A stretch of DNA of 64,000 nucleotides from Liolophura sinensis (lineage: Eukaryota > Mollusca > Polyplacophora > Chitonida > Chitonidae). The stretch is taken from NCBI RefSeq assembly GCF_032854445.1, contig NC_088295.1, positions 23,859,385 to 23,923,384 of the forward strand. The letters run 5' to 3'. Below, in pieces: positions 1,607 to 64,000 of this stretch; position 1 is the first letter of the stretch; every line of letters starts with the position of its first letter. Under the pieces are notes generated by a model that saw only the letters and a list, made by a program, of their open reading frames with translations, made no database searches and was not told the DNA's origin. The translations under genes and the position numbers were made by a program.

Positions 1607-4600
1607 GAACATAATCGTCATGCTGGTCGGCTAATTGTCCTCTCTGGTAAGACCGGCAAGTGTTTGGGCAGGTATCTGGATATGCCTGACAGTAAGGAGA
1701 CGTACATGAGCTCTGTCATATACAGTATGCCAGACCAGTCACAGTACATACTGTTTGGTAGTGGAGGAGAAACTGTCCCAGGTAGGTCAGATCAGGATGT
1801 TTACATTGACTGGCTGTAATGTGTATTTTTAGTGTAGGTATACTTAAGTGTTTACATTGTGTGTCCACATCTAAATAGACAAGATCAGAACCAGTCAATC
1901 TATCCAAATGTTGCTCTGGATGTTCAGCCAGAGATTTACATATACATGTAATGCTGATCTAGAAACAGATTACCACTGACGTTTGATGTCAGTTTACTTT
2001 CTACTTTGAATTAATCCTAGATTGGGTAACATATCACTCTGTACAGTACATGAATAATAGACCTTCTGCCCAATTATGTTAAATACATTACAGCATTATC
2101 TGACTACTGATTTTGTCCTGTGTTCTTTATCTTTGTGATGTGTTTTCACATTGGAATTTTCATACTGTTGCACTAAAAGGTGATTTCATGGCAATCTCTC
2201 TACGAGACTTTTACCGTTACGTGATGAGCACAACAAAAGATGCCCCGACTATCAAGGGGAACTACTCTCATTGGTCTCATGTTCCCAAAGATGACAAAGG
2301 CATTATGAAGCTTTTCAGGTAGAGTGCACGTTTAGATCTGTAAACATGATGCTTTTTGTTCTGCCAATTTGTTAACCACAATTTATGGTCGAATGATGCA
2401 GGTTGTGAGTTTCATTTAAATAAAGAGGGTTTACTGTTTTCTGTAAAAATGGAAATTGATTCACATTGCTCTCTTAAACGTAGCTAACATCCACAGAATT
2501 TTATCATCGCTCATGTATATTTATATAAGTCAGCTACAAACAATCAGTGGTAATGTCATAAGGGGTTATGGTACCGCCAGTCATATCAGATGTAAACAAT
2601 GATAGCATTATATGCCATTTGTTACTGATCTGGGTCTGTTACATTGGTTGGCTTGGCCAATTTCAGGGTATCACAAAAAGCGAAGTTTTATCAGTCTACA
2701 CAGAATAATGCCTTCAGAATATGCTTGAATAAACACCTTGCAAGCATGCATAAGGTTGAACAATTACAGTCCCAATAGTCATGGCAGATGTGAACACTGA
2801 TGGTATCATGTCTCAGTTGTAACTGGTGTATGTCTGTTTTCAGTGGTAATGAGACAGGGGTTATGGTACCACCGGTCATGGCAGATGTCAATAATGATGG
2901 TATAAAGGACATTCTCATGACAGCCTTTGAGGGGAAGATGATACTGTTTGATGGCAAAACCTTGAATATATTATGGACATTATCACTGAAAGGATATCAG
3001 ACTTACAGGTAAGAACAGCCAAGCTAAAATGTATGTCAGTGTAAAAACCTTTGTCTGAAAAGCAGGGTTAAATGAAAGGATGGAGTTTGTTTAGTTGTTT
3101 TCCTGAATTATAAGAAACAGTGTACTAGAATTGCATTTGCAAGCTTCTAAGGATGAAACAGAAGTTTTCTGCCATTTCCACTTTTGCCTGGTATTATACA
3201 GGATAGGAACACGACGTTTCAACGTTCTTCATGTTCTCTTGACGTCATTCTTACTAATTCTTACCCAACTCATTGTCATGTCTGCCTGAGTCAATATCAT
3301 ATCTGCCTTAGTCAGTGTCACTTAAAGAATATTACCGCCTTACAACAGACAAATTTTACAGAAACTATCAGAGATTTTTTTTTTTGGAGAATCCTTCAAT
3401 TATAGGATTTAAATTATGTTCTTCATCCTATATCATTTTTAACCATGTTGTTAGCTCAGTGCCACAGGATTTTCTTCATATCCCAATTTGTGTGTTAAAG
3501 GTAGTGTGGAAACTTTATACATGTACTTTACCTATCAGTACATTTACAAGTATTTTGTTCAGCACACCAGCACCAGGTTATTTTGATGGGGATGATCACT
3601 TAGATTTCATGACTTCCTGGAACAGTGGCACCTGGCCCGAATACAAGCATGCAATGGTAAGATTTTCACATGTACATCTACATTCTCACTTTAGTCATGT
3701 CAATCAGACAGCTCATAGTGGAATATTGCCTGTTTTTGAAAAGCTTGTCAGCTTTGCTCCCACGTTAAACCACTCTTATTCAATGTATTTTAATGCAGTC
3801 CAGGGCCAGTAGATATCAGAGATCTCAAGACTTGAGTAAAAAGTTCAAAGACAAGTACAATTAATAAGTTTATTTCAGGATGTATACAATTTATACACAG
3901 AATGTTTACTTAGTGTAGAACACTTGTCACTTTATTAAACAGGTCTCCCCTAGTCTGAAGTTAATCTGACTTCATGTATTCAGTAACAAAATCTGGTAAC
4001 AATTTAAAACCCAAAACAAACCAGTAGCTTGATCCAGACAGCAGTCAAACTTCAGCTCCCAGTGTGAAATAACCATCTGTGTGTGTTGCCTTCCCCAGAT
4101 GATTGTAGTGTCAACTCCCACTTTGAAATAACCATCTGTGTGTGTTGCCTTCTCCAGACCAGATGATTGTAGTGTCAACTCCCAGTTTGAAATAACCATC
4201 TGTGTGTGTTGCCTTCTCCAGACCAGATGATTGTAGTGTCAACTCCCAGTTTGAAATAACCATTTGTGTGTCTTGCCTTCCCCAGACCAGATGATTGTAT
4301 TGTCAACTCCCAGTTTGAAATAACCATCTGTATGTGTTGCCTTCCCCAGACCAGATGATTGTAGTGTCAACTCCCAGTTTGAAATAACCATCTGTGTGTG
4401 TTGCCTTCTCCAGACCAGATGATTGTAGTGTCAACTCCCAGTTTGAAATAACCATCTGTATGTGTTGCCTTCCCCAGACCAGATGATTGTAGTGTCAACT
4501 CCCAGTTTGAAATAACCATCTGTATGTGTTGCCTTCCCCAGACCAGATGATTGTAGTGTCAACTCCCAGTTTGAAATAACCATCTGTGTGTGTTGCCTTC

Positions 4601-7600
4601 TCCAGATGATTGGGATTCATACATGTCGATTTTAGACTGCAGTATTCGGTGGTAAAATTCAGTTAAAAACTGAACACTGGGTAAAAAAAAACTCAAATCT
4701 GTCTTTTTCTGGTGCAAATACTCAAATTTTTGGATAAAAATTGAATGCGAATCCTATATGCATAGCATTTGACTGCGATCATCGATGGCTGGACCCTTGA
4801 CAAGCCGAAGTAGTCAGCCATAATTTTGAGGAGCAAGATGGCAAAAAACAAGGCCTAATTGTGCCGACATGGGCTGAGTAAATGGACTCAAGCTTTCCCC
4901 ACCAACAGTGTTTAGAGACTGATTGCCATCACAGAAGATTTGAGATCAAGCATCCTTTTAACATGTAATGCTAATGATATAACCATCTGTCTTCAGCAAC
5001 TTTATGGTCAGTGTGGCAGAATCAGGTCAATCTGGCTGGCGCATTAAATGTGCGTGTTGACCTGCGTAACTCAGTAGAAGTACAGAGCGTTGTCTGCTGA
5101 GCATGTGCAAATGTGATATTGATGCTTATTTACGATTTGTGGATTCTTTGTATCCAAAAAAAAAAAAAAGACAGCATACAGTGCACAATACCGTGTATAA
5201 TCATAAAAGGCACTCACATGTGTAGGTTCATATATGAAGCAGGCAGTTGTTTGAATCAATTGCTGAGCATACGCTGTGAATTATCTTTGATTTAAATTAG
5301 TTTAGTGATGGATGGATGTATATTTCTTTGGGCCAAGTGATTGGGACAAATTGAAACGCATTCATGTAGATCTTAAATTTTGTTGTAACAGGCTCAAAAT
5401 GGAAGAGTTTTGCATCAAACCTACATCATCAAAATATCCCCAGTGGTGTCCTGCTCTTCGGGTTGGCATCAGACAATGTGTTCTTCACAGCTTGAGCCCC
5501 TTGTTTTGGTGCTAGAAATGTACTGTTTGGGACATCCCATATTAAGCAAAAAAGTTAATCAGATGTAAGCATAATTTTTCTCCGGTCAAAAGTGGGTCGG
5601 GGATCGTATAATTGGCGTGATTTCTCGAGCTGTCAGTAACAATCTCCAGCCCTATAGAGGGGTTGGATGACCCATTGAAGTACTGCGGCTATACCAGCCC
5701 ATGTTAAAAGGGCTCCAATATGGCTGACTGGCGATTGTTCTGCCAGAATGATATCACATGTAACCTCTCTGTAATGCCAAGGAAAGTTTGATAGGAAATG
5801 TATCATTTTATTGATACATTGTTGCTATGTGAAAACATTAGTAGAGGCACTTGAAAGGGGCAGACCTGTGCACTTTCCAAATCCATACAGAGAAGCTCAT
5901 TTACAAGGACAAGGCTTATATTTAACCCTAAAACTTTATACAGGACATGATCTTGGCTCCCTTCTTCCTGAAGTATAAATGATTTACAGGCAAAGTAAAT
6001 TAGGTCAAAGGTATTTAGTGATCTGTGGTGAGGCTCCCTTGGTTGCTTACAACATAGCCAAGCACACAGTGTACCTGTAAGGAGGATTTTCTTGTGTTTC
6101 TTTGTTTAATATAACAACCAACAACTGAACATTAATGGTTTATAATTGTGTCATTATAATCATACATGTATCTCTGATCAGGATTAGCCCAGCCTTTGTT
6201 TTTGCATAAGTTGTTATTTTTGATGACACATGCAGGGTTTGTAACTGTTTTATTATGTACCTCTAGTCTTAGCAGGATAAGCCTCATCTCTTTATTTGCA
6301 CATGTTTACTTTTGATATAATGGTTGTTAGTTCCTTTTTTTTTCCCTTTGATATAACCACCAACAACTGAACATGCATTACCATGGTTTATATCTGTTTT
6401 ATTATATAATTTGTATCTGATCAGAATAATATACGTGTAAAATTATATGTGTGTACCGACAATAAAATCGTGATTAGAAATGAACCTCAAATGAAATGAA
6501 ACTTTCTTTATGTATATATGCATATTTCATATCTACTTTTACGTTCACAAAGTTACCAGTCGCTAAAGTGGAATTAAACTTGATACAAGATTAAAGTTAC
6601 AAGTAAATTCAATCAGAGAAACTGACCAGAGAAAAAAATGAATTTTGAGTTTCAGGTTGTAAAGATTTGGACTTCTATGAATCCCTGTTGTTGTATCAAC
6701 TCCTAGTTTGAACTAACCATCAGTGTGTGTTACCTTCCCCAGATGATTGTAGTGAGTGGTGCAGATGGGGTTATACTGTGGAAGACTTACTCGCAGGAGT
6801 ACAACATGGCCTCTCCTCTCTCCCTCCAAACCTCTCACTATCATCAGGATGCCTTCCTCTTCCAGCTGGTGGGTAGGACCGGCAAGAAAGTGAATGATGT
6901 AAACGGGGCTATCCATGGCATAGGAGCTCAGAGAAATGTGAGTATGCACTGAGATTCTGATCACAGTAAGATATCAAACCTTATTCAGATCAACGTTGCC
7001 TTTATTCAAGTTGTGAACACTGCTAAGTGTCTTACAGTTTGTGATTGGCATTATTAACCTACTTGTATAAAGAGAAGCAATTCAGAAAATATATTTTTAA
7101 TTCCATTCAGTGTTGTTGTAATGTTTGTATTAGTTTTTATTTGTCCCCTATCAGTGGTATTAACCTGATGTGACTATAGGTTTTCACTTCACCAGTTTGT
7201 CCCTCCTTAAAATATTCCTGCTTCTTTTTGTTATCCTTTATGATTTTAGTGCAAACTTTGCACATGTGTTTAATATACAAGTTCAACTTGGTAATCATTT
7301 ATGAATTTATGGGTTTTTTTGGAATTTTTCCAGTTTCACTCAATATATTCCACGTTGTTTTGGTTCTCGATTAGTTCTGATGTTATGTGATCATAAGACA
7401 TCATAACACAAGCAAGATTCCTGGAACTGCCTGGGACCTACATTGTATGTTTTGTTCATTATTACTTTCATAGTGCTTGTTATTTTGACATTTACCATTG
7501 TAAATGTGGTCCTTGTGTTGCAGCTGACGAGAAGATCATCAGGAAGTGAAAAGATGCAAGACTTCCCTACTTCTTATGGTGAAGATCAGCTGAGGCATAG

Positions 7601-36000: not shown

Positions 36001-39000
36001 GATGTTAAACAAGGTATTTTACAACCGAGAGTGAACTCGCATGCTATATTTCTGTTTTAGGTCGTAATAGAGCCAATTACACCAGAGACCCGTTTGTAAA
36101 ACTGTTCTTACTACCTGACGAAAGGACATGCAGAATCTCGAAAATGAAGAAGAAAACATTGTCTCCGATCTTTAACGAGACTTTCGTGTTCCAAGTGAGT
36201 GTTTCCTGCTAGCCCAGAAAGGTTTTGCCATTAACTAGTCATGATAGTCAAATATACTGTATAAATCCATTTCGATATAAGAAGACACGACGTGCACGAT
36301 GTATTACAAGTGAATATAATAATATAATACCAGCGCGGTTCAATGGCCCAGTAGCCTTTCATCAGTGTGAGTTCCTAGTCCATGCAGCTCATACTGCAGA
36401 TGGTCGTGAATTTCCCCGAGGCTCTACCCGGTTTCCGCACACCATAATGCTGGCCGCCGGCATAGGGCCTATAAGTGAAATGTTCTTGAGTATGGCGTAA
36501 CACACCAATGAAATAAATAAATAAATATCTGTTCAAGGCATTTGTTACTAAAACAGTATATTGCTTGTACCGGTACCGAAAACATGTAAATATATATAGT
36601 CTGTTACTATTTGATCTATCTTCCATGAAGGTACCCCCGTCCGATCTGATGAATCGATCTCTCAGACTCTCGGTCTACGACGTGGATAGGCGTAAAGTGC
36701 GTCATTCTTTAGGCCACGTGGTTGTCTCGCTTAAAGAGTGCGACCTGTCGAAAGGCGATGTGTTGTGGCGAGACTTGGAAACTATGGCTCAGGTAATTTC
36801 AGGGATAATCTTCTGTCTGGTAATCCTCTGTCTGCATACATGGATTCATATCATTATCCTTACAGATTAACGCCTGTATAAACTGTTTAAATTCTCGAGA
36901 AATGTTCATAAATTTTTTCTTTCTCGGGGAATATATGCGGGCGAATTTATATGCAGGCTACATACGCTGGACTTTGAATTAGAGCGCAGGATGAATAGAT
37001 TACATAGACTATAGACTATAGGCCTCATTTATACTTACCCATATGGATCACTTTGCATTTAAAACTGTAATGTTCATATGTGTTTGTCCATCTACCTGAT
37101 AAATTTGAGTAGACCGAATTTTCTGGAGTAAGCTGGTCAATTTCCCGCCAGAACTGGACAAAATCCGAAAAGGCGGGATCAATTGTGAAAACTGTGTTGT
37201 GAAACTTTGAGATCGGAAGCACATGTTGCATGTGCATATCGTGCCAATCGTTATAAGCCAAACTTTTTAGAAAGCTAACGATACCGCGAAGGGAGCAGGG
37301 ACAGCCAGCACAACTTGTCACTCACGACCGGTACTGTTATTGCTGCAGCCACCATTCCAGCGCTCTCACCGCTTGCAGGACTAGTGACAATAAGCTGTCG
37401 ACGATGCAGAAGTAACGACTGTTACCCTCAATGCTGCAGCCACGACTGTTACCGTTAATACTGTAGCCACGACTGTTACTGTTAATGCAGCCCGAACGAC
37501 TGTTACCGTTAATGCTGCAGAAGCTATTGTTACTGTTAATGCGGTAGCCACGACTGTTACCGCTAATACTGTAGCCACGACTGTTACCGTTAATGCTGCA
37601 CGAACGACTGTTACCGTTAATGGTGCAGCCACGGCTGTTATCGTTAATGCTGCAGCCGCGGCTGTTACCGTTAATGGTGCAGCTACGACTGGTACCGTTA
37701 ATGGTGCAGCCACGGCTGTTACCGTTCATGGTGCAGCCATGACTGTTACCGTTAATGCTTCAGGCACGACTGTTACCGTTAATGCTGCAGTCACGAATGT
37801 AACCATTAATGCTGCACCCACGACTGTTACCGTTAATGCTGCAATCACGGCTGTTGGATTTTAAAGTTTCGGCTTTAATTGTTCCGTTTGTCCTTTTTGC
37901 ATTATTGATCTGCCATTCTTCTGTTTTTTCCCCTTTCTCTGCAGTATTAATCTGCCCCTGAGCTTCCTGGAAGTTTGTGAAAATCCATTAAAGGATACAG
38001 GATTTTGCCAGATAAATATAGCCTCTAGACTATACTGTAAAATAAATATTGACGAAGTTTACTCCCTGTTTAGCAAGGCTTTCCTTGTGACAGGTTTCAT
38101 TTTGACCGAAACACATTTTGGCTTGCGTTTAATCATGCACAGATCCTAAAATTCAATGAATATGAACGGTCCAATACTGACAATACTTTTAACGTACTGT
38201 TATTTGCTTACATGACATTCACTCAACCTCATATATTTATTTTATTTTATTTATTTGATTGGTGTTTTACGCCGTACTCAAGAATATTTCACTTATACGA
38301 CGGCGGCCAGCATTATGGTGGGAGGAAACCGGGCAGAGCCCGGGGGAAACCCACGACCGTCCGTAGGTTGCTGACAGACCTTCCCACAACCTCATATGTA
38401 GCATGATATCTTGCCCTTTAACATCCTGAAATGTCCCCGTTTCATTCGGTCATTATTTAATTTCTCTGTTGCAGCCATCTGTAAACATGGGTGAAGTGCA
38501 GTTTTCCCTTACCCACATGCCAAACTTTGAGAAGGTAAAAGTCACCATCCACCAGGTTCGCAACATTCACCTGTCCCAGTGTGACATGGACTCCGGTAAG
38601 TCAGACTCACTAGGCTACAGAAAAGTCTGTTCACTTGTTTCTACAAATGAGAGGCCACCTATGTTCATGTTCACTACGTTAAAAGAAATGTATAGCCTGA
38701 CTGGAAATTGCTCTCATGCCCTGATTCTGTGCAATTTCTTCCAACAATAAACAGCTATACCTGATCAGAAATGTTCTTCGGTAGGGTACATACATGGAGT
38801 TATTAAAACAAACAACTTTTAAGTTAATAAGGACGAGGAGTACGGCAGAGTAACCGTATAGCCGTATGTGTCTGTCTGAGATCGGGTCATCGAATAATTT
38901 TCTTTTTCGGATACAGTCTTGCTGTTTACCCTTGGCCAACGAGGCCAGGTGTTTGATTGATAGATCTTGGTGGTTAGGTTATGGCTTTAAGTCCGGTGAG

Positions 39001-53400: not shown

Positions 53401-56400
53401 TACTTATTTGCTGTTCTTTCCATCTGCCTGCTTCACAACAAATATCATTCTAGTCCCCAAGGTATTCTAAATTCATACCTACATGTATGTGATAACAACT
53501 GCATATTGTCAGCCTTACGAATAACCTACACCTATATAGTTGTATACAATATAAAATTTGTCGCCTGACAAATCTTTTAGATTAATGGAATCTTAAAACT
53601 ATGTATTTACTCATATACTGTATCACATATCTATTGACAGTGAGATAATGTTAAATGTTTGTAAACACTGAGCTAAATGGCAAGCTGACAGCTGATAATG
53701 TTTGGACATGTACATATATGATGTACATGTTGTTCAGAGATTACCAAGTGTTGGCTGAAAACATGCATAAAACCTCATTATCTACTGGTTTTAAATGCCA
53801 TATTTTACTCAGATTAATGCACCCTTTTTTAAATATTTTTTAATTTCAGTTTAACGATATATACAGGTGTAACTAATTATGAGTAGATAATAAATCTGGA
53901 CACCAGTCTCTTATTATAATCTTTCTTAAAATGAACATGCAAACAAAAGTTTATAAAGTTAAAAGCAAATTACTGCCCACAAACCAATGACCAATCATAA
54001 TTAAAACTGTATATAACATCAGACTGGTTTTCGAACTTGATCTGAAGTTAACCACCAATTTAAGTGCAAGATCTCACAAACTCAGGGTAACCTGTTAATT
54101 TCATGACTCTTCTCTACTTTTCAAGGTGTGATAAACCTCATCCAAGAATCCACCAACCTATAGAAACTGCCACTGCTAAAGGGCAGAAAAATACTTTGTA
54201 GACAACGAAAACCCTTGACTCAAGTTAATGTTCAAAAGTAATGTTTAAATCCGAAAGTGTCGATCACATTAGGCTTATCATGATTGGTGTAAAATTATGT
54301 TCTTAAAGTTGACAACTCAACAGTAAATTAGTAAATCAGTGAATGTATGAACCCCAAAAATACAGTCTAAAGATTGCACCTAAATCTGCACCTTATCTTT
54401 AATCTGTGTTAAGTGAGTTATAATAAAGTTTATGTGAATCATACAAGTGAATCAATTAACAGCTTCAACAAGTGACCTACATTGCAAATGATCACATATG
54501 AACACATCTGAAGACAATTAAAGTATAGCTTTTCAACTGACTGTAATCAATTTACATACCTGAGAAGGGCATCTTGGGAAACCACCTCTCCTGTCTTAGG
54601 ATCAATAGCATGGATGTATATATCTGACCTATTGAGATAAAGGACAATATGTTTTAATGCACATTGATACAATGTTACAGTACATAAATAAATATAAAAA
54701 GGCCTAATGCCTGACTACAACATCAGAATTTTCAATCATCGAACATGTCTTTTGCCTAATTGTGTCACCCACAACAATGACGTAGAGAAGTCAAATATGT
54801 GCAGGCCATATTTGAAGGTGTTAAACAGGCTACTGTATAATTACATGGATATGGTTACTGAACTGTGTAGTGTAACTGTCTATGCACTGGCTTCCATTCA
54901 GGGTTAATACATGTCATTAACGCTGGTTTTGTACGGACACATGCTTATAACGCAGGGAGCATCTTCATGTTCATGCATGTGTTACAAGCCATTTGACGCT
55001 TCATCATGATATGAAAGGAAATCTTACATTTCTGGGTTAAGCTTGGAGCCAGTTTCTGAGTGGGCGATGTGAGGCTCAACTGACTCTACCTGGACATTAT
55101 AGGCAAGGATGGCACTCAGGTTACTGAAACACAGGTACATGTACATGTTAAGATAACAACACAGTGAAACATTCCTGCAGACAGCACTGATGGTAGTGAG
55201 GTTACTGAAACATAGGTAGATGTACATGTTCAGATAACACAGTGAAACATCTCTGCAGACAGACAGTATCAATGGTGGTGAGGTTACTGGAACACAGGTA
55301 CATGTACATGTTCAGATAACAACACAGTGAAACATGCCTGAAGACAGCACTGATGGTGGTGAGGTTACTTAAAACACAGGTACATGTACATGTTCAGATA
55401 ACAACACAGTGAAACATCCCTGCAGACAGCACTGATGGTAGTGAGGTTACTGGAACACAGGTACATGTACATGTTCAGATAACAACACAGTGAAACATCC
55501 CTGCAGACAGACAGTATCAATGGTGGTGAGGTTACTGGAACACAGGTACATGTACATGTTCAGATAACAACACAGTGAAACATGCCTGAAGACAGCACTG
55601 ATGGTGGTGAGGTTACTGAAACACAGGTACATGTACATGTTCAGATAACAACACAGTGAAACATTCCTGCAGACAGCACTGGTGGTAGTGAGGTTACTGA
55701 AACATAGGTAGATGTACATGTTCAGATAACACAGTGAAACATCTCTGCAGACAGACAGTATCAATGGTGGTGAGGTTACTGGAACACAGGTACATGTACA
55801 TGTTCAGATAACACAGTGAAACATCCCTGCAGACAGCACTGATGGTAGTGAGGTTACTGAAACACAGGTACATGTACATGTTCAGATAACAACACAGTGA
55901 AACATTCCTGCAGACAGCACTGATGGTAGTGAGGTTACTGAAACATAGGTACAATGTACATGTTCAGATAACAACACAGTGAAACATTCCTGCAGACAGC
56001 ACTGATGGTAGTGAGGTTACTGAAACACAGGTACATGTACATGTTCAGATAACACAGTGAAACATCTCTGCAGACAGACAGTATCAATGGTGGTGAGGTT
56101 ACTGGAACACAGGTACATGTACATGTTCAGATAACACAGTGAAACATCCCTGCAGACAGCACTGATGGTAGTGAGGTTACTGAAACACAGGTACATGTAC
56201 ATGTTCAGATAACACAGTGAAACATCTCTGCAGACAGCACTGATGGTGGTGAGGTTACTGAAACACGGGTACATGTACATGTTCAGATAACAACACAGTG
56301 AAACATCCCTGAAGACAGCACTGATGGTGGTGAGGTTACTGACACACAGGTACATGTACATGTTCAGATAACAACACAGTGAAACATGCCTGAAGACAGC

Positions 56401-59400
56401 ACTGATGGTAGTGAGGTTACTGAAACACAGGTACATGTACATGTTCAGATAACAACACAGTGAAACATCCCTGAAGACAGCACTGATGGTAGTGAGGTTA
56501 CTGAAACACAGGTACATGTACATGTTCAGATAACAACACAGTGAAACATCTCTGCAGACAGACAGTATCAATGGTGGTGAGGTTACTGAAACACAGGTAC
56601 ATGTACATGTTCAGATAACAACACAGTGAAACATCCCTGAAGACAGCACTGATGGTGGTGAGGTTACTGACACACAGGTACATGTACATGTTCAGATAAC
56701 AACACAGTGAAACATCCCTGAAGACAGCACTGATGGTAGTGAGGTTACTGACACACAGGTACATGTACATGTTCAGATAACAACACAGTGAAACATGCCT
56801 GAAGACAGCACTGATGGTAGTGAGGTTACTGAAACACAGGTACATGTACATGTTCAGATAACAACACAGTGAAACATCCCTGCAGACAGCACTGATGGTA
56901 GTAAGGTTACTGAAACACAGGTACATGTACATGTTCAGATAACAACACAGTGAAACATCCCTGCAGACAGCACTGATGGTAGTGAGGTTACTGAAACATA
57001 GGTACATGTACATGTTCAGATAACAACACAGTGAAACATCCCTGCAGACAGACAGTATCAATGGTGGTGAGGTTACTGAAACACAGGTATATGTAAATGT
57101 TCAGATAACAACACAGTGAAACATCCCTGAAGACAGCACTGATGGTGGTGAGGTTACTGAAACACAGGTACATGTACATGTTCAGATAACAACACAGTGA
57201 AACATCCCTGAAGACAGCACTGATGGTAGTGAGGTTACTGAAACATAGGTACATGTGCATGTTAAGATAACAACACAGTGAAACATCCCTGCAGACAGCA
57301 CTGCTGGTAGTGAGGTTACTGAAACACAGGTACATGTACATGTTCAGATAACACAGTGAAACATCCCTGAAGACAGCACTGATGGTGGTGAGGTTACTGA
57401 AACACAGGCACATGTACATGTTTGGATAACAACACAGTGAAACATCTCTGCAGACAGCACTGATGGTAGTGAGGTTACTGAAACATAGGTACATGTAAAT
57501 GTTAAGATAACACCCCAGTGAAAACCCCTGCAGACAGACAGTATCAATGGTGGTGAGGTTACTGAAACATAGGTACATGTACATGTTAAGATAACACCCC
57601 AATGAAAACCCCTGCAGACAGACAGTATCAATGGTGGTGAGGTTACTGAAACATAGGTACATGTACATGTTAAGATAACACCCCAGTGAAAACCCCTGCA
57701 GACAGACAGTATCAATGGTGGTGAGGTTACTGGAACACAGGTATATTTATACGTTCAGATAATGGTACAGTGACAGTGTCCTAAGTGTTTCCTCCACCCA
57801 CCATAATGCTGGCCGCCGTCGTATAAGTGAAATATTCTTGAGTACGGCGTAAAACACAAATCAAAAAAAAAAAAAAAAAAAAAATAAGTGTTTCCTAAAT
57901 GTACACGTAAAGTTAAGTAAACTATACAGTCCCATAAGAATTGCATTCAGTTTCCAACAAAACTTACAAATATGTAAGTGATGTTTAGACAGCTCCTAAC
58001 AATAAAGTAACATCACTCTCCTCAAACAGGGGATTGAAGTGAATCATATAAATGCTTGTGGCTTACCCTTGTATGTCTGGGACAAAGTCCTTCACTGCCC
58101 TGACTGGGTGACCAACCACTAAGATAGCCCTGTCACTGTCAGACACCACAGCAACCTGTTCAGCATGGAGAACACTCAGTGTTAACCATGTTGAGTACTT
58201 AAACTGCACATACATATATACAGCTCTATTCTAACCTCTTTGTCTTACCATTTATAACCTTGACAAAATTTCACTCTTCCATAACTGATTCCTACATGTA
58301 TGAAGCCAAAAGCAGACATAGAGGAATTTAGTCGGTTTCTTTGCTTAAATATACAAATAAATATATACCAAAACAAGTGAAGATATAAAGTGTATACAAG
58401 CAAAAAATCATTTCAGATCATCATTATAATGACGTAAGTCATCCAAAAATATAAAATCTTAATGCAACTACATTCAGAAGACCACAGTAAATGATGTGAA
58501 TTGATGTGATATTCTTTCCATCTTTCTAAACGCAGACATAAAAAGCCATTACCGTGACGGCCACTTGTACACTATGTCCCTGACCCATATTGTCAGTAGC
58601 ATTCACCACAACACTGAGTTGATTGATCAGAGTCTTAGCCAGGTCACGAACACAGCGAAGTTCTCCTGACAAGGTGTCAATGTTCAGGGTGTTTGTGTCC
58701 CCTTGGCTCAGGGAGTAGAATATAGCACTGTTGTTACCCTCATCCAAGTCTGTGGCCTGTGGAAAAGACAACACAGGAGGCATGCTTCAGAACAGCTCTA
58801 ACAATTTATGTGTGTTTATTTATTTGATTGGCGTTTTATGCCGTACTCAAGAATATTTCACTTATATGATGGCAGCCAGCATTATGGTGGGAGGAAACGG
58901 TCAGAGCTCTGGGGAAACCCACGACCATCCGCAGGTTGCTGACCAACAGTCACATATTACTAGATCTACATAGAAAGAGTGCTATCATTTACTTGGTGTT
59001 TTTCTCTGTCACATGTGCACATGCACTATAAACAAACTATAAACATTTATGGCACTTGTACAAAGCTTGTCTCTACAGCAAAGCTATAGTAGGAACTATT
59101 TCCACACATACCATTTATACTTTCTTGAAAACTCTTTTCAACAAATTACACTTTCAAATTAATGATTTTAATCAATTATCTTGAAATTCAATCTCTAAGA
59201 CAATGATATATCACCCTGGAAATTGCACAAAGGTGTTTCTCACTGTAATATAAGGACTCACAGTGAGAGTAGCTATCAGGTAGTTAAAACTGGAGCTTCT
59301 CGGAAGACCAAAAGTCAGCTTATTTGTATTAAATTTAGGTGCATTGTCATTTTCATCTCCTACATCAATCACAACACGAATATCTCCAGGATTATCTGAA

Positions 59401-61119
59401 AGTACAAACACAGCAATACTTAGAACAGCAAATTTAACCTAAAAACAAAAGTAAATATCATGGAAATACATGAATACATTCAGTTATCAATGGTAAATTT
59501 ACACCCACAAACCACTATCTATCAACTAAGGCAGAAATGTTTGGATATACATTAGCTGACATAGATGTGTGATAACTGGTAACAGTTTTTTACATGTTTG
59601 TCCAGTCTTACCCCCAAATGCACGCTTTCTTCTTGAGCTTTTGTGGGTCACCTGTCCATGGACCAAAAGCACATATTCACTCACTTCCTCTCTGTCCAAC
59701 TGTTGTAGGACATAAATTTTACCAGTGGAGCTACTTATGTTGAATAGATCTACAACACAGAATCAACAAAAATGTAACAACCCATGTACATATTGTATTT
59801 ACATTTGGAAAATGTGGAGTTAAAGGGTGAGATACCCAAGCATGAAGTGATGACAAATGCTGAAAAAGGGAGACAAAACTTTGCTTTAACAAATACAACA
59901 AATTTGTTTTTTTCCTTCTCGCTCTTGGCACGTACCATGTGCATGAAATACGTTGCCATTCTACTAACATATACACACACATACAACATTTTGCTGTCTG
60001 CTTTGATGTCGGAAATAACAGCTGTACGATGCAGTCAGTCAATGTTACTATATTATGTAAAATTATTATTATGAGGACATTTTCATGTACAACTGTTCTT
60101 CAATGCTTTTGAATGTGATACGGTCAAGAAAGGCCACGGGACAACTCCTTGAAGGTAGTTGTATACATGTGTATCACCTGACCTCACACGCACCCTGTCT
60201 ACTTTATCAGTTTTATATCTGAAATATACTCTGTATCGCGATAAATTCATGATATGATGACCTGCATGTACACGTATATACTGATTGATATCTGTCTGTC
60301 GATCAATAATATTCTTCCTCTGCATTGCCTCGTAAAAACATTATGGACCTCAGCCAAATATCCACCTGTACACGTCCAGAAGGTCTCCATATCACAAATA
60401 ATGTAGATGTATACGTCCAGAAGGTCTCCATATCACAAATAATGTAGATGTATACGTCCAGAAGGTCTCCATATCACAAATAATGTAGATGTATATGTCC
60501 AGAAGGTCTCCATATCACAAATAATGTAGATGTATACGTCCAGAAGGTCTCCATATCACAAATAATGTAGATGTATACGTCCAGAAGGTCTCCATATCAC
60601 AAATAATGTAGATGTATATGTCCAGAAGGTCTCCATATCACAAATAATGCAGATGTATGTGTCCAGAAGGTCTCCATATCACAAATAATGTAGATGTATA
60701 CGTCCAGAAGGTCTCCATATCACAAATAATGTACATGTAGATGGCTTTCATCAATACATAAAGGATTGAAAACTAACCAAGTTGTTACCGGACTATAATT
60801 ATACACTTTTCATCTTTACAATATATAGTATATGACAAAATGACATACTGTAACAAAAATGTACTTTGCCTCTGTTAATTCAAATCGAATAATGTAATGC
60901 CCTTTTTAGTGAATGGTCAGTATTCAAGTTTACACTACATGTACAGCCATTTTGCTGCTGTTTCTGTCTCATACCTGGATAACTGAAATCGACAAAGGTG
61001 TAAGTGACAGGCTGGCCAGCTAGCTCCTCTGTTGTGTTGATGTCCACAACTAGCTGATACGGTTCCTGGTTTTCTAAGTGGACCACAGTTAACACTGTAT
61101 TTTCAATGTGGATCAGCAC
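44083..61119 (-). CDS. Large cadherin, cadherin-23/protocadherin-15 type, C-terminal 653 residues (twelve exons)
   Basis: Exons in coding order: 61119-60975, 59749-59612, 59395-59262, 58756-58553, 58155-58067, 55123-55028, 54628-54560, 51470-51279, 50249-50115, 49744-49646, 48731-48627, 44638-44083 (TAA). Phases agree at every junction and give 653 codons plus stop. EC-repeat hallmarks are visible: DENDNAPKF linker, ATDLDEGNNSAIFYSL, DTLSGELRC, NATDNMG. After the last EC comes a membrane-proximal domain (VAVVSDSDRAILVVG to KELTRLTVS), then a TM helix (IALLCLAAVIFVGSILSIGV) and a ~300-residue acidic/Ser-rich tail ending VTRL, a class I PDZ ligand. Long ectodomain, proximal domain and PDZ-ending tail resemble CDH23/PCDH15, adhesion proteins of actin-based cell protrusions. 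The N-terminal EC repeats lie beyond 64000. Cadherin membership is firm; the CDH23/PCDH15 subclass is inference. Confidence 0.85.
44670..44697. repeat. Poly-A run (28 nt on + strand)
   Basis: Homopolymer 32 bp intron-side of the last cadherin exon's acceptor, which reads as poly-T on the coding strand and so forms part of a long pyrimidine tract. Confidence 0.95.
45369..45651. repeat. 94-bp tandem triplication
   Basis: Three almost identical copies starting ACTGAATCTGTAGTGTAACT at 45369, 45463 and 45557. Near-identity suggests a recent expansion or strong homogenisation. Confidence 0.9.
47376..47605 (+). mobile_element. tRNA-derived SINE (diverged)
   Basis: GAGGGCCTCCGTGGCCTCAT head, B-box region GAGTTCAAGCCTGG, CCAGCAACCTGTGCATTGCT, tail ATTCTTGAGTACTGCATAAA, CACCAATCAAATAAATAA. 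Antisense to the cadherin gene. Confidence 0.8.
49368..49610. repeat. 36-bp minisatellite
   Basis: About 6.5 copies of TTTTGGCACCTAAGCTGCTC with AAACCAGTGCCCTGTA. Multiple-of-three length creates periodic ORFs in several frames on both strands; none is a gene. It lies in the cadherin intron 49645-48732, ~36 bp beyond the donor. Confidence 0.9.
50369..50427. repeat. (AT)n microsatellite
   Basis: About 29 dinucleotides in the cadherin intron 51278-50250. Confidence 0.95.
51737..52490. repeat. 53-bp minisatellite
   Basis: About 14 highly similar copies of TTGTGATTGTCAACAAAACT, CAAGGAACAGTGAGAGTAGG, GGAACATAACAA. Variants alternate AGTAGGGG and GTGGGAG, hinting at a two-unit higher-order duplication. 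In cadherin intron 54559-51471. Confidence 0.9.
52491..54559 (-). other. Remainder of cadherin intron
   Basis: Unique AT-rich sequence. No exon needed by phase and none seen. Confidence 0.4.
55124..57740 (-). repeat. 81-bp minisatellite containing the 3' splice site and start of the next cadherin exon
   Basis: About 32 units immediately abut the exon 55123-55028. On the coding strand each unit contains TGTGTTTCAG, TAACCTCACTACCATCAGTG, CTGTCTGCAGGGATG, TTTCACTGTGTTGTTATCTG, AACATGTACATGTACC. The real junction is TGTGTTTCAG|TAACCTGAGTGCCATC, so each copy repeats the acceptor and about 16 nt of exon. Variants lack three bases (78 bp) or carry a GACAGACAGTATCAATGG form (4 bp longer, shifting frame). 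Multiple-of-three length creates ORFs of up to 226 codons with a 27-residue period (NLTTISAVCRDVSLCCYLNM...), which are repeat artefacts unless decoy acceptors are used. Confidence 0.9.
57790..57885 (+). mobile_element. SINE 3' fragment with poly-A
   Basis: CCTCCACCCACCATAATGCT, GGCCGCCGTCGTATAAGTGA, CTTGAGTACGGCGTAAAACA, then a ~21-nt A run. It directly follows the 81-bp array. Confidence 0.8.
58814..58943 (-). mobile_element. SINE 3' part, reverse orientation
   Basis: TTTATTTATTTGATTGGCGT, CCGTACTCAAGAATATTTCA, CAGCCAGCATTATGGTGGGA, CGACCATCCGCAGGTTGCTG. 5' truncated; sense to the cadherin gene, ~60 bp upstream of the acceptor of exon 58756-58553. Confidence 0.85.
60366..60738. repeat. 41-bp minisatellite
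   Basis: About nine nearly identical copies of ACGTCCAGAAGGTCTCCATA, TCACAAATAATGTAGATGTAT in cadherin intron 60974-59750. Confidence 0.9.
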
Positions 61120-61483: not shown

Positions 61484-64000
61484 TACAGCTTTGTGCATGG
61501 TTGTGAAGTAAGGACTACATTCAGCAGTCCTTCAGATAGAACTGATGAAGGTTTGTGCATGGGTGTGAAGTAAGGATTACATTCAGCAGTCCTTCAGATA
61601 GAACTGATGAAGCTTTGTGCATGGGTGTAAAGTAAGGATTACATTCAGCAGTCCTTCAGATAGAACTGATGCAGCACTGTGCATGGGTGTGAAGTAAGGA
61701 TTACATTCAGCAGTCCTTCAGATAGAACTGATGAAGCTTTGTGCATGGGTGTGAAGTAAGGATTACATTCAGCAGTCCTTCAAATAGAACTGATGCAGCT
61801 TTGTGCATGGGTGTGAAGTAAGGATTACATTCAGCAGTCCTTCAGATAGAACTAATGCAGCATTGTGCACGGGTGTGAAGTAAGGATTACATTCAGCAGT
61901 CCTTCAGATAGAACTGATGAAGCTCTGTGCATGGATGTAAAGTAAGGACTACATTCAGCAGTCCTTCAGATAGAACTGATGCAGCAATGTGCATGGGTGT
62001 GAAGTAAAGATCACATTCAGCAGTCCTTCAGATAGAACTCATGCAGCACTGTGCATGGATGTGAAGTAAGGATTACATTCAGCAGTCCTTCAGACAGAAC
62101 TGATGAAGCTTTGTGCATGGGTGTGAAGTAAGGACTACATTCAGCAGTCCTTCAGATAGAACTGATGAAGCTTTGTGCATGGGTGTAAAGTAAGGATTAC
62201 ATTCAGCAGTCCTTCAGACAGAACTGATGCAGCATTGTGCATGGGTGTGAAGTAAGGATTATATTCAGCAGTCCTTCAGATAGAACTGATGCAGCACTGT
62301 GCATGGGTGTGAAGTAAGGATTACATTTAGCAGTCCTTCAGATAGAACTGATGCAGGTTTGTTCACGGGTGTGAAGTAAGGATTACATTCAGCAGTCCTT
62401 CAGATAGAACTGATGAAGCTCTGTGCATGGATGTAAAGTAAGGACTACATTCAGCAGTCCTTCAGATAGAACTGATGCAGCACTGTGCATGGGTGTGAGG
62501 TAAGGATCACATTCAGCAGTCCTTCAGATAGAACTGATGCAGCACTGTGCATGGATGTGAAGTAAGGATTACATTCAGCAGTCCTTCAGACAGAACTGAT
62601 GAAGCTTTGTGCATGGGTGTGAAGTAAGGATTACATTCAGCAGTCCTTCAGATAGAACTGATGCAGCACTGTGCATGGGTGTGAAGTAAGGATTACATTT
62701 AGCAGTCCTTCAGATAGAACTAATGCAGCTCTGAGCATGGGTGTGAAGTAAGGATTACATTCAGCAGTACTTCAGATAGAACTAATGCAGCTCTGAGCAT
62801 GGGTGTGAAGTAAGGATTACATTCAGCAGTCCTTCAGATAGAACTGATGAAGCTTTGTGCATGCGTGTGAAGTAAGGATTACATTCAGCGGTCCTTCAGA
62901 TAGAACTGATGCAGCACTGTGCACGAGTGTGAAGTAAGGATCACATTCAGCAGTCCTTCAGATAGAACTGATGAAGGTTTGTGCATGGATGTGAAGTAAG
63001 GACTACATTCAGCAGTCCTTCAGATAGAACTGATGAAGGTTTGTGCATGGATGTGAAGTAAGGACTACATTTAGCAGTCCTTCAGATAGAACTGATGCAG
63101 GTTTGTGCATGGATGTGAAGTAAGGATTACATTTAGCAGTCCTTCAGATAAAACTCATGCAGGTTTGTTCACGGGTGTGAAGTAAGGATTACATTCAGCA
63201 GTCCTTCAGATAGAACTGATGAAGCTTTGTGCATGCGTGTGAAGTAAGGATTACATTCAGCGGTCCTTCAGATAGAACTGATGCAGCACTGTGCACGAGT
63301 GTGAAGTAAGGACTACATTTAGCAGTCCTTCAGATAGAACTGATGAAGGTTTGTGCATGGATGTGAAGTAAGGACTACATTCAGCAGTCCTTCAGATAGA
63401 ACTGATGAAGGTTTGTGCATGGATGTGAAGTAAGGACTACATTTAGCAGTCCTTCAGATAGAACTGATGCAGGTTTGTTCACGGGTGTGAAGTAAGGATT
63501 ACATTCAGCAGTCCTTCAGATAGAACTGATGAAGCTTTGTGCATGCGCGTGAAGTAAGGATTACATTCAGCGGTCCTTCAGATAGAACTGATGCAGCACT
63601 GTGCACGAGTGTGAAGTAAGGATCACATTCAGCAGTCCTTCAGATAGAACTGATGAAGGTTTGTGCATGGATGTGAAGTAAGGATTACATTCAGCAGTCC
63701 TTCAGATAGAACTGATGAAGGTTTGTGCATGGATGTGAAGTAAGGACTACATTTAGCAGTCCTTCAGATAGAACTGATGCAGCTCTGTGCATGAATGTAA
63801 AGTAAGGATTACATTCAGCAGTCCTTCAGATAGAACTGATGCAGCTCTGTGCATGGATGTGAAGTAAGGATCACATTCAGCAGTCCTTCAGATAGAACTG
63901 ATGAAGGTTTGTGCATGGATGTGAAGTAAGGATTACATTCAGCAGTCCTTCAGATAGAACTGATGAAGCTTTGTGCATGGATGTAAAGTAAGGATTACAT
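61484..64000. repeat. 62-bp satellite, runs off the right edge
   Basis: About 40 units of GATGAAGCTTTGTGCATGGG, TGTGAAGTAAGGATTACATT, CAGCAGTCCTTCAGATAGAA, CT. Variants (GAAGGTTT, GCAGCACT, GGACTACATT, GGATCACATT) recur in the same order over several units, suggesting higher-order blocks. It lies in the cadherin intron upstream of the exon at 61119. Confidence 0.95.

Follow-up and report, generated by a model that had tools for sequence, protein, structure and literature searches.

A minisatellite grown from a 3′ splice site places 64 decoy acceptors next to an exon of a cadherin gene in the chiton Liolophura sinensis

Which acceptor does a gene use when one of its introns ends in dozens of copies of its own 3′ splice site? 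The question is raised by a 64,000-nucleotide stretch of the genome of the chiton Liolophura sinensis (contig NC_088295.1, here C1, positions 23,859,385 to 23,923,384 of the forward strand; hereafter the window). Within an intron of a long cadherin gene encoded on the minus strand, this stretch carries a tandem array of 32 units that adjoins the inferred authentic 3′ splice site at 55123 directly, and each unit repeats that site. Our analysis of the genome sequence points to a minisatellite of the "mirage" type, i.e., of the kind described at intron–exon boundaries of lancelet genes, that has probably grown into the intron from a duplicated 3′ splice site; of the available acceptors, the one beside the exon, at 55123, is most likely still the main one.

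The array was delimited with Tandem Repeats Finder (TRF), which gives a period of 81 bp, 32.5 copies and 91% matches, and an alternative period of 490 bp (92%) that corresponds to blocks of six units. Splitting the array at AG/TAACC (a slash in a motif marks the point of splicing) yields 33 acceptors, referred to as class I, of which 32 are decoys and one is the exon-proximal acceptor at 55123; unit alignment returns lengths of 78, 81, 82, 84 or 85 bp (n = 32). This bears out an earlier, sequence-only annotation of the locus (the original prediction), which had proposed a minisatellite of about 81 bp, built from a cadherin 3′ splice site, with some 32 decoys abutting the real acceptor. The same prediction held that each unit contains an acceptor and a copy of the first ~16 nt of the following exon, and the acceptor is indeed found in every unit, but the exon part is not an exact copy: a typical unit agrees with the real exon at 13 of its first 16 nt. 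With the array set aside, none of 143,984 positions scanned on the minus strand of 144 kb gives a match of this quality (13/16); the 144 kb comprise the window and the next 80 kb of C1, which lie upstream in the cadherin gene and in which positions above 64000 continue the window numbering. Furthermore, when 425 bases from the end of the array next to the exon were searched against the 609-Mb assembly, simple repeats and very common words being ignored, the 10 matches obtained all fell within one locus (C1:23914420-23917124). The array originates from the 3′ splice site boundary of the cadherin exon. In addition to the predicted acceptor, a second, higher-scoring class with the motif GTCT[G/T]CAG (class II) is present in all 32 units.

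The strength of the decoys was assessed with a matrix of 154 acceptors from four dynein heavy chain regions of the same genome, taken from those of 201 exons that offered a single clear acceptor each; this choice relied on a generic score, which biases the matrix toward good sites. The matrix gives the real acceptor a score of 7.27. Class-I decoys have a median score of 6.69, and 13 of the 32 lie at or above the real acceptor, while the class-II sites have a median of 8.83, all 32 equal or exceed the real acceptor, and 25 equal or exceed the dynein median. None of the 31 other AGs in the array reaches the score of the real acceptor, and all 64 decoys, i.e., 32/32 of class I and 32/32 of class II, are at or above the 5th percentile of the dynein acceptors. 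The claim that the decoys are equivalent to the real acceptor is thereby upheld, in the sense that they match the acceptor profile of the genome about as well. Donors are lacking: of 334 GT dinucleotides in the array, none scores as high as the median donor of the gene (n = 27), and three attain the 10th percentile, compared with a score of 7.13 for the exon's own donor at 55028. The array is a collection of many acceptors without a good donor.

When the decoys are joined to the upstream exon, a stop is reached by 31/32 of class I and 30/32 of class II. Across the 95 AGs examined, 91 meet a stop, and the four that are open in frame are those at −51, −63 (a weak AG), −81 and −129 relative to the real acceptor. 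The first class-I decoy (exon start at 55204) lies exactly 81 bp upstream, and its use would insert 27 residues in an open frame, as originally predicted; the prediction erred in taking it for the nearest open in-frame decoy, because −51 and −63 are nearer. The following decoy (55286) lies out of frame and runs into a stop, which agrees with the earlier account, but not for the reason given there, a unit longer by 4 bp: the unit from 55204 to 55286 measures 82 bp and combines a 4-bp insertion with a 3-bp deletion, for a net gain of one.

Long reading frames cross the units, 81 bp being equal to 27 codons. A coding array was nevertheless rejected, because unit lengths of 78, 81, 82, 84 and 85 bp disrupt the frame and nearly all entries meet stops. 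Recursive splicing was likewise rejected, as the units have CAG/TAACC rather than AG/GT, and a junction of the type AAGG/TAACC would restore a GTAACC donor one base upstream, with loss of the frame. A search for structured RNA gave no Rfam match at the gathering threshold within the window. Just upstream of the array lies a short interspersed element-like insertion with 12-bp direct repeats at its flanks, which has 23 matches in the 144 kb, its own copy included.

Exon boundaries in the host gene were assigned from reading frames and homology. The exon upstream of the array ends at 58067 in a donor that scores 9.47 (the 27 other donors of the gene have a median of 8.30), and the exon adjoining the array (55123-55028) begins at the acceptor TGTGTTTCAG/T and ends at the donor AAT/GTAAGA, such that the frames across the 58067/55123 junction join as ...DIQ-G-NLSAIL.... 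The exon-joined peptide around the array matches PF23206 (PCDH15_12th) with 34.6 bits (cut-off 27; E 2.1e-8), in agreement with the proposal that the exon belongs to a membrane-proximal cadherin domain, and an exon farther upstream matches the cadherin domain PF00028 with 108.2 bits; matches in the PDB are weak, with E 0.039 for PCDH15 and E 0.42 for CDH23. In the gene, cadherin repeats are followed by the PF23206 domain and then by one transmembrane segment, the last judged by eye. The host of the array is a long cadherin with a membrane-adjacent domain of PCDH15/CDH23 type. More than 20 cadherin-repeat motifs were recognised by eye, a number nearer to that of CDH23 than to that of PCDH15. 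A PF23206 profile search of the genome, aimed at a paralogue that has this intron but lacks the array, gave no matches, and the gene containing the array was itself missed by it. Elsewhere in the genome, eight matches to PF14830 (mollusc haemocyanin), a family not known outside molluscs, lie within 11.4 kb of C8, every one above the cut-off, in keeping with a mollusc; 14 control genomes gave none, a comparison of little weight, as the controls identified were prokaryotes. The cadherin exon at 59529-59762 (minus strand) contains a furin-like KSSRRKR motif, seen by eye.

The units have not diverged uniformly. Averaged over all pairs, their identity is 0.893; of the lags from 1 to 15, a lag of 6 gives the highest mean (0.927). 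Every one of the 32 units departs from the start of the real exon at positions 7, 9 and 11, a pattern that suggests that the array homogenises with the exon left out, as expected if selection maintains the exon. In both acceptor classes the AG columns show little or no variation, one unit with TTTTAAG shifting the class-I alignment. Selection on the decoy acceptors is not detectable from these columns, because 53 of the 81 core columns are invariant anyway and four invariant AG columns have a probability of P 0.18.

From the array, its boundary origin, the acceptor and donor scores and the reading frames, we infer the order of events, the choice of acceptor by exon definition and the low use of decoys as follows. 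The first step would have been a tandem duplication across the 3′ splice site, comprising ~65 nt of intron end and 16 nt of exon, and the array would then have expanded into the intron through unequal exchange or slippage, partly in six-unit blocks. Growth on the intron side would have left the exon and its neighbouring acceptor intact, and the array would thus have been tolerated. As there is no competent donor in the array, any decoy would depend on the donor at 55028 and define an exon longer than the 96 nt obtained with the real acceptor; with this donor shared, exon definition would favour the closest competent acceptor, and 55123 most likely remains the main one. Leakage, if any, would be more likely first at the stronger −51 (+17 residues) and −129 (+43) sites, and then at −81 (+27), while nearly all remaining decoys would yield a premature stop.

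Some of our data weigh against this account. A matrix built from 30 acceptors of the cadherin gene ranks the real site below all 30; being small, it was set aside for the dynein matrix, which is larger and independent, and with which the real site scores above 8 of the same 30 acceptors. Exclusive use of 55123 is not predicted by the sequence features considered here, since the real acceptor is equalled or outscored by all class-II decoys, of which the nearest (−51 and −129) are open in frame. A branch-point difference is suggestive as an explanation of the choice of site, with CTTAAC ~24 nt upstream of the real AG and CTGAAC at 27 of the 33 sites, including every decoy from 55204 to 57156, but CTTAAC is also present at four far-upstream decoys (one further decoy has another motif). 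Upstream of 183 acceptors TTAAC is enriched 1.42-fold (11 occurrences) and CTGAA is not enriched, and because this enrichment is weak, the difference is kept as a lead only.

The closest known systems are the lancelet (Branchiostoma) mirage minisatellites of Adh3, the globins BflGb6 and BflGb9, troponin C and PGBD5, described in the excerpts of the reports considered here as tandem duplications across an intron–exon boundary, 5′ or 3′, in which splice signals are repeated, copies turn over and the cluster boundaries are excluded (PMC3087553, PMC3902484). Regular splicing is reported there to be undisturbed in lancelet genes of like structure (PMC3087553, PMC3902484). The chiton array shares four features with these cases. 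Its units span the intron–exon boundary, a typical one containing the end of the intron, the AG and an exon start that agrees at 13/16 positions, the splice signals are retained in many units, turnover inside the array is concerted with the boundary copy excluded (as seen in one haplotype), and 5′ and 3′ boundaries are both affected within one genome. It differs from what is described for lancelets in its mollusc host, in the extra, stronger acceptor in each unit, in the occurrence of several arrays in one gene, and in its 32 decoys, compared with 6 and 3 units in the two BflGb6 haplotypes. Tandem duplication that carries or activates splice signals has also been linked to intron gain, in the potato RdRp gene (PMC4974935) and in human internal tandem repeats (PMC2812944); in those cases, according to the parts of the reports considered here, new introns arise in coding sequence, whereas the chiton duplicates lie within an existing intron. 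Among the matches listed in a search of the open-licence literature, no splice-junction minisatellite in a mollusc was found. The human interferon-induced 6-16 gene reportedly contains a minisatellite with multiple splice donors that yields alternative transcripts; going by the title of that report, it multiplies donors, whereas the chiton array multiplies acceptors. The array is of a known kind, that of the lancelet mirages, and what is new is the mollusc phylum, the many copies, the second acceptor per unit and the presence of five such arrays in 144 kb.

These five boundary arrays, out of 35 TRF arrays in the 144 kb, contain copies of splice junctions, and four of them are in the cadherin gene, at 5′ and 3′ sites. 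The sequence repeated in the array of the neighbouring gene (4052-4606) is the 3′ splice site of the exon at 6743 plus the initial 12 nt of that exon, from which the array is now separated by ~2.1 kb of other sequence. An array at 92981-93652 resembled a further boundary array but was not counted, because no exon boundary could be assigned to it. For comparison, the dynein heavy chain regions (180 kb, 201 exons used, 29 arrays), in which 16 stretches with arrays near exons (10 + 6) were inspected by eye, gave one boundary case, a 21-bp two-copy duplication across a donor. Further displaced boundary copies were not found, among the matches listed (up to six per array), when the units of all 29 dynein arrays and of eight arrays of the extension were compared with their surroundings, as was likewise done for the first 104 kb; the matches listed near dynein exons are of 13-24 nt with E 8e-5 or weaker, three A/T-rich low-complexity arrays having more matches.

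Boundary arrays might be seeded by a mutation process directed at splice junctions rather than be born anywhere, a possibility that we consider unlikely, although it survives better than the other alternatives discussed below. If arrays arise at random, unit lengths predict 0.83 junction-spanning arrays for the 144 kb and 3.0 for the dynein regions; five and one are observed. The excess in the 144 kb has P 0.0017 (P 0.010 without the main array), and boundary arrays affect 4 of ~84 boundaries in the cadherin gene vs 1 of 402 in the dynein genes (Fisher 0.0036; 0.017 without the main array). However, the dynein sample, with one case in 29 arrays, falls below expectation, and pooling of both samples gives 6 observed vs 3.84 expected (P 0.19). 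Furthermore, the excess in the 144-kb sample is overstated, because exon counts are approximate (34 cores + 8) and the boundaries of the plus-strand gene are mostly uncounted. Random birth of arrays, combined with tolerance, suffices overall, and a local excess is possible.

Table 1 Features of the array, its host gene and other boundary arrays. Positions are those of the window numbering unless a contig is named; +n gives the residues added by use of the site
Feature	Position	Strand	Basis or score
Minisatellite of 3′ splice site and exon start, 32 units of 78-85 bp	55118..57762	−	TRF, unit alignment
Intron containing the array	55124..58066	−	Inferred from exon frames
Upstream exon (VAVVSDSDRAILVVGHPVRAVKDFVPDIQG), donor ACAAGG/GTAAGC	58067..58155	−	Exon frames; donor score
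Inferred authentic acceptor catgtacctgtgtttcag	55124..55141	−	38th percentile of 154 acceptors
Exon after the array (NLSAILAYNVQVESVEPHIAHSETGSKLNPE), within PCDH15-like membrane-adjacent domain	55028..55123	−	PF23206 on exon-joined peptide
Closest competent decoy (class II, −51), open and in frame, +17	55175..55192	−	Score 8.54
First class-I decoy, −81; in frame, open, +27	55205..55222	−	Score 6.68
Class-II decoy, −129; in frame, open, +43	55253..55270	−	Score 7.44
Next exon (SDIYIHAIDPKTGEVV...)	54560..54628	−	Exon frames
Exon with membrane-proximal end and transmembrane segment	51279..51470	−	Transmembrane segment judged by eye
Short interspersed element-like insertion with AGGAAACACTTA direct repeats at flanks	57787..57860	−	Repeats by eye
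Acceptor-derived array in neighbouring gene, 64 bp x 8.8	4052..4606	+	TRF; 84% match to 6696-6754
Exon start, source of the 4052-4606 array (ATGATTGTAGTG...)	6743..6760	+	~2.1 kb downstream of array
Three in-frame acceptors 27 bp apart at cadherin exon, 27 bp x 2.8	89585-89659	−	
Donor GATCAG/GTAAAG and four downstream copies, cadherin gene, 115 bp x 4.7	116920-117458	−	
Two identical copies across donor ATCACAG/GTATG, cadherin gene, 37 bp x 2.0	120448-120521	−	
Two-copy dynein donor duplication (TACAG/GTAAAG, TACAG/GTGAAG), 21 bp	C7:57232662-57232701		

Other arrays of the region were observed in passing. The choice among the acceptors at 89585-89659 would add 9 or 18 residues. A 62-bp array of ~139 copies (8.6 kb) extends from 61486 past the end of the window at 64000 to ~70223 in another cadherin intron, and no splice site was recognised in it by eye. 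A 27-bp x 16 array at 37415-37855 has frames open on both strands over long stretches and lies close to an open frame whose C2-like match stays under the Pfam cut-off.

The decoys invite the reading that the array is a working splicing device, the acceptors of which are variably used and the repeat number of which tunes the cadherin output between individuals; its products would be variants of the membrane-adjacent domain longer by 17, 27 or 43 residues and, with more distant decoys, transcripts that carry premature stops. This fits the scores of the 64 decoys, none of which falls below the 5th percentile of real acceptors, and the open frames of the three nearest competent ones. We nevertheless regard it as improbable, since the decoy AGs show no visible selection beyond the general invariance of the units, since only one class-I and two class-II decoys escape a stop, and since the lancelet cases are, in the excerpts considered, reported to splice normally (PMC3087553, PMC3902484).

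To much the same degree we doubt that the acceptor has been wrongly assigned, in which case the exon would extend into the array and the main site would be a class-II acceptor at 55174 (+17 residues) or 55252 (+43). Both are in frame and open, and with 8.54 and 7.44 they outscore the 7.27 of the site at 55123. However, the PF23206 match, which aligns 91 residues to 95 positions of the profile, extends across the 58067/55123 junction, and in the weak PCDH15 alignment nothing is inserted in the query at the junction, the 5 extra residues being those of PCDH15 and standing just past it, by four residues; 17 or more additional residues are therefore not called for. The residues that would be added are, moreover, array-derived and rich in cysteine and tyrosine. 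A mis-assembled repeat or a wrong copy number is hardly credible, for although arrays this large are often mis-sized in assemblies, the units differ from each other, the flanks are unique in a contig of 96 Mb, and further boundary arrays with other units are present in the same region.

A mirage-type minisatellite with the exon-proximal acceptor as its probable main site extends splice-junction minisatellites from lancelets to a mollusc, with several in one gene and at both intron ends. The locus offers a natural test of spliceosome choice, in which one acceptor stands against 64 competent-looking others, 32 of them near-copies and 32 of equal or better score, with no good competing donor. The model proposed in PMC3087553, in which introns are gained from such arrays, likewise finds material here. 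That the acceptors of the array are spliced at a real rate is improbable; if they were, the membrane-adjacent domain would be extended by 0, 17, 27 or 43 residues, and copy number would set the share of functional and premature-stop transcripts. Copy number should then vary between individuals, and the four boundary arrays in this one adhesion gene could form a heritable, fast-evolving splicing dial.

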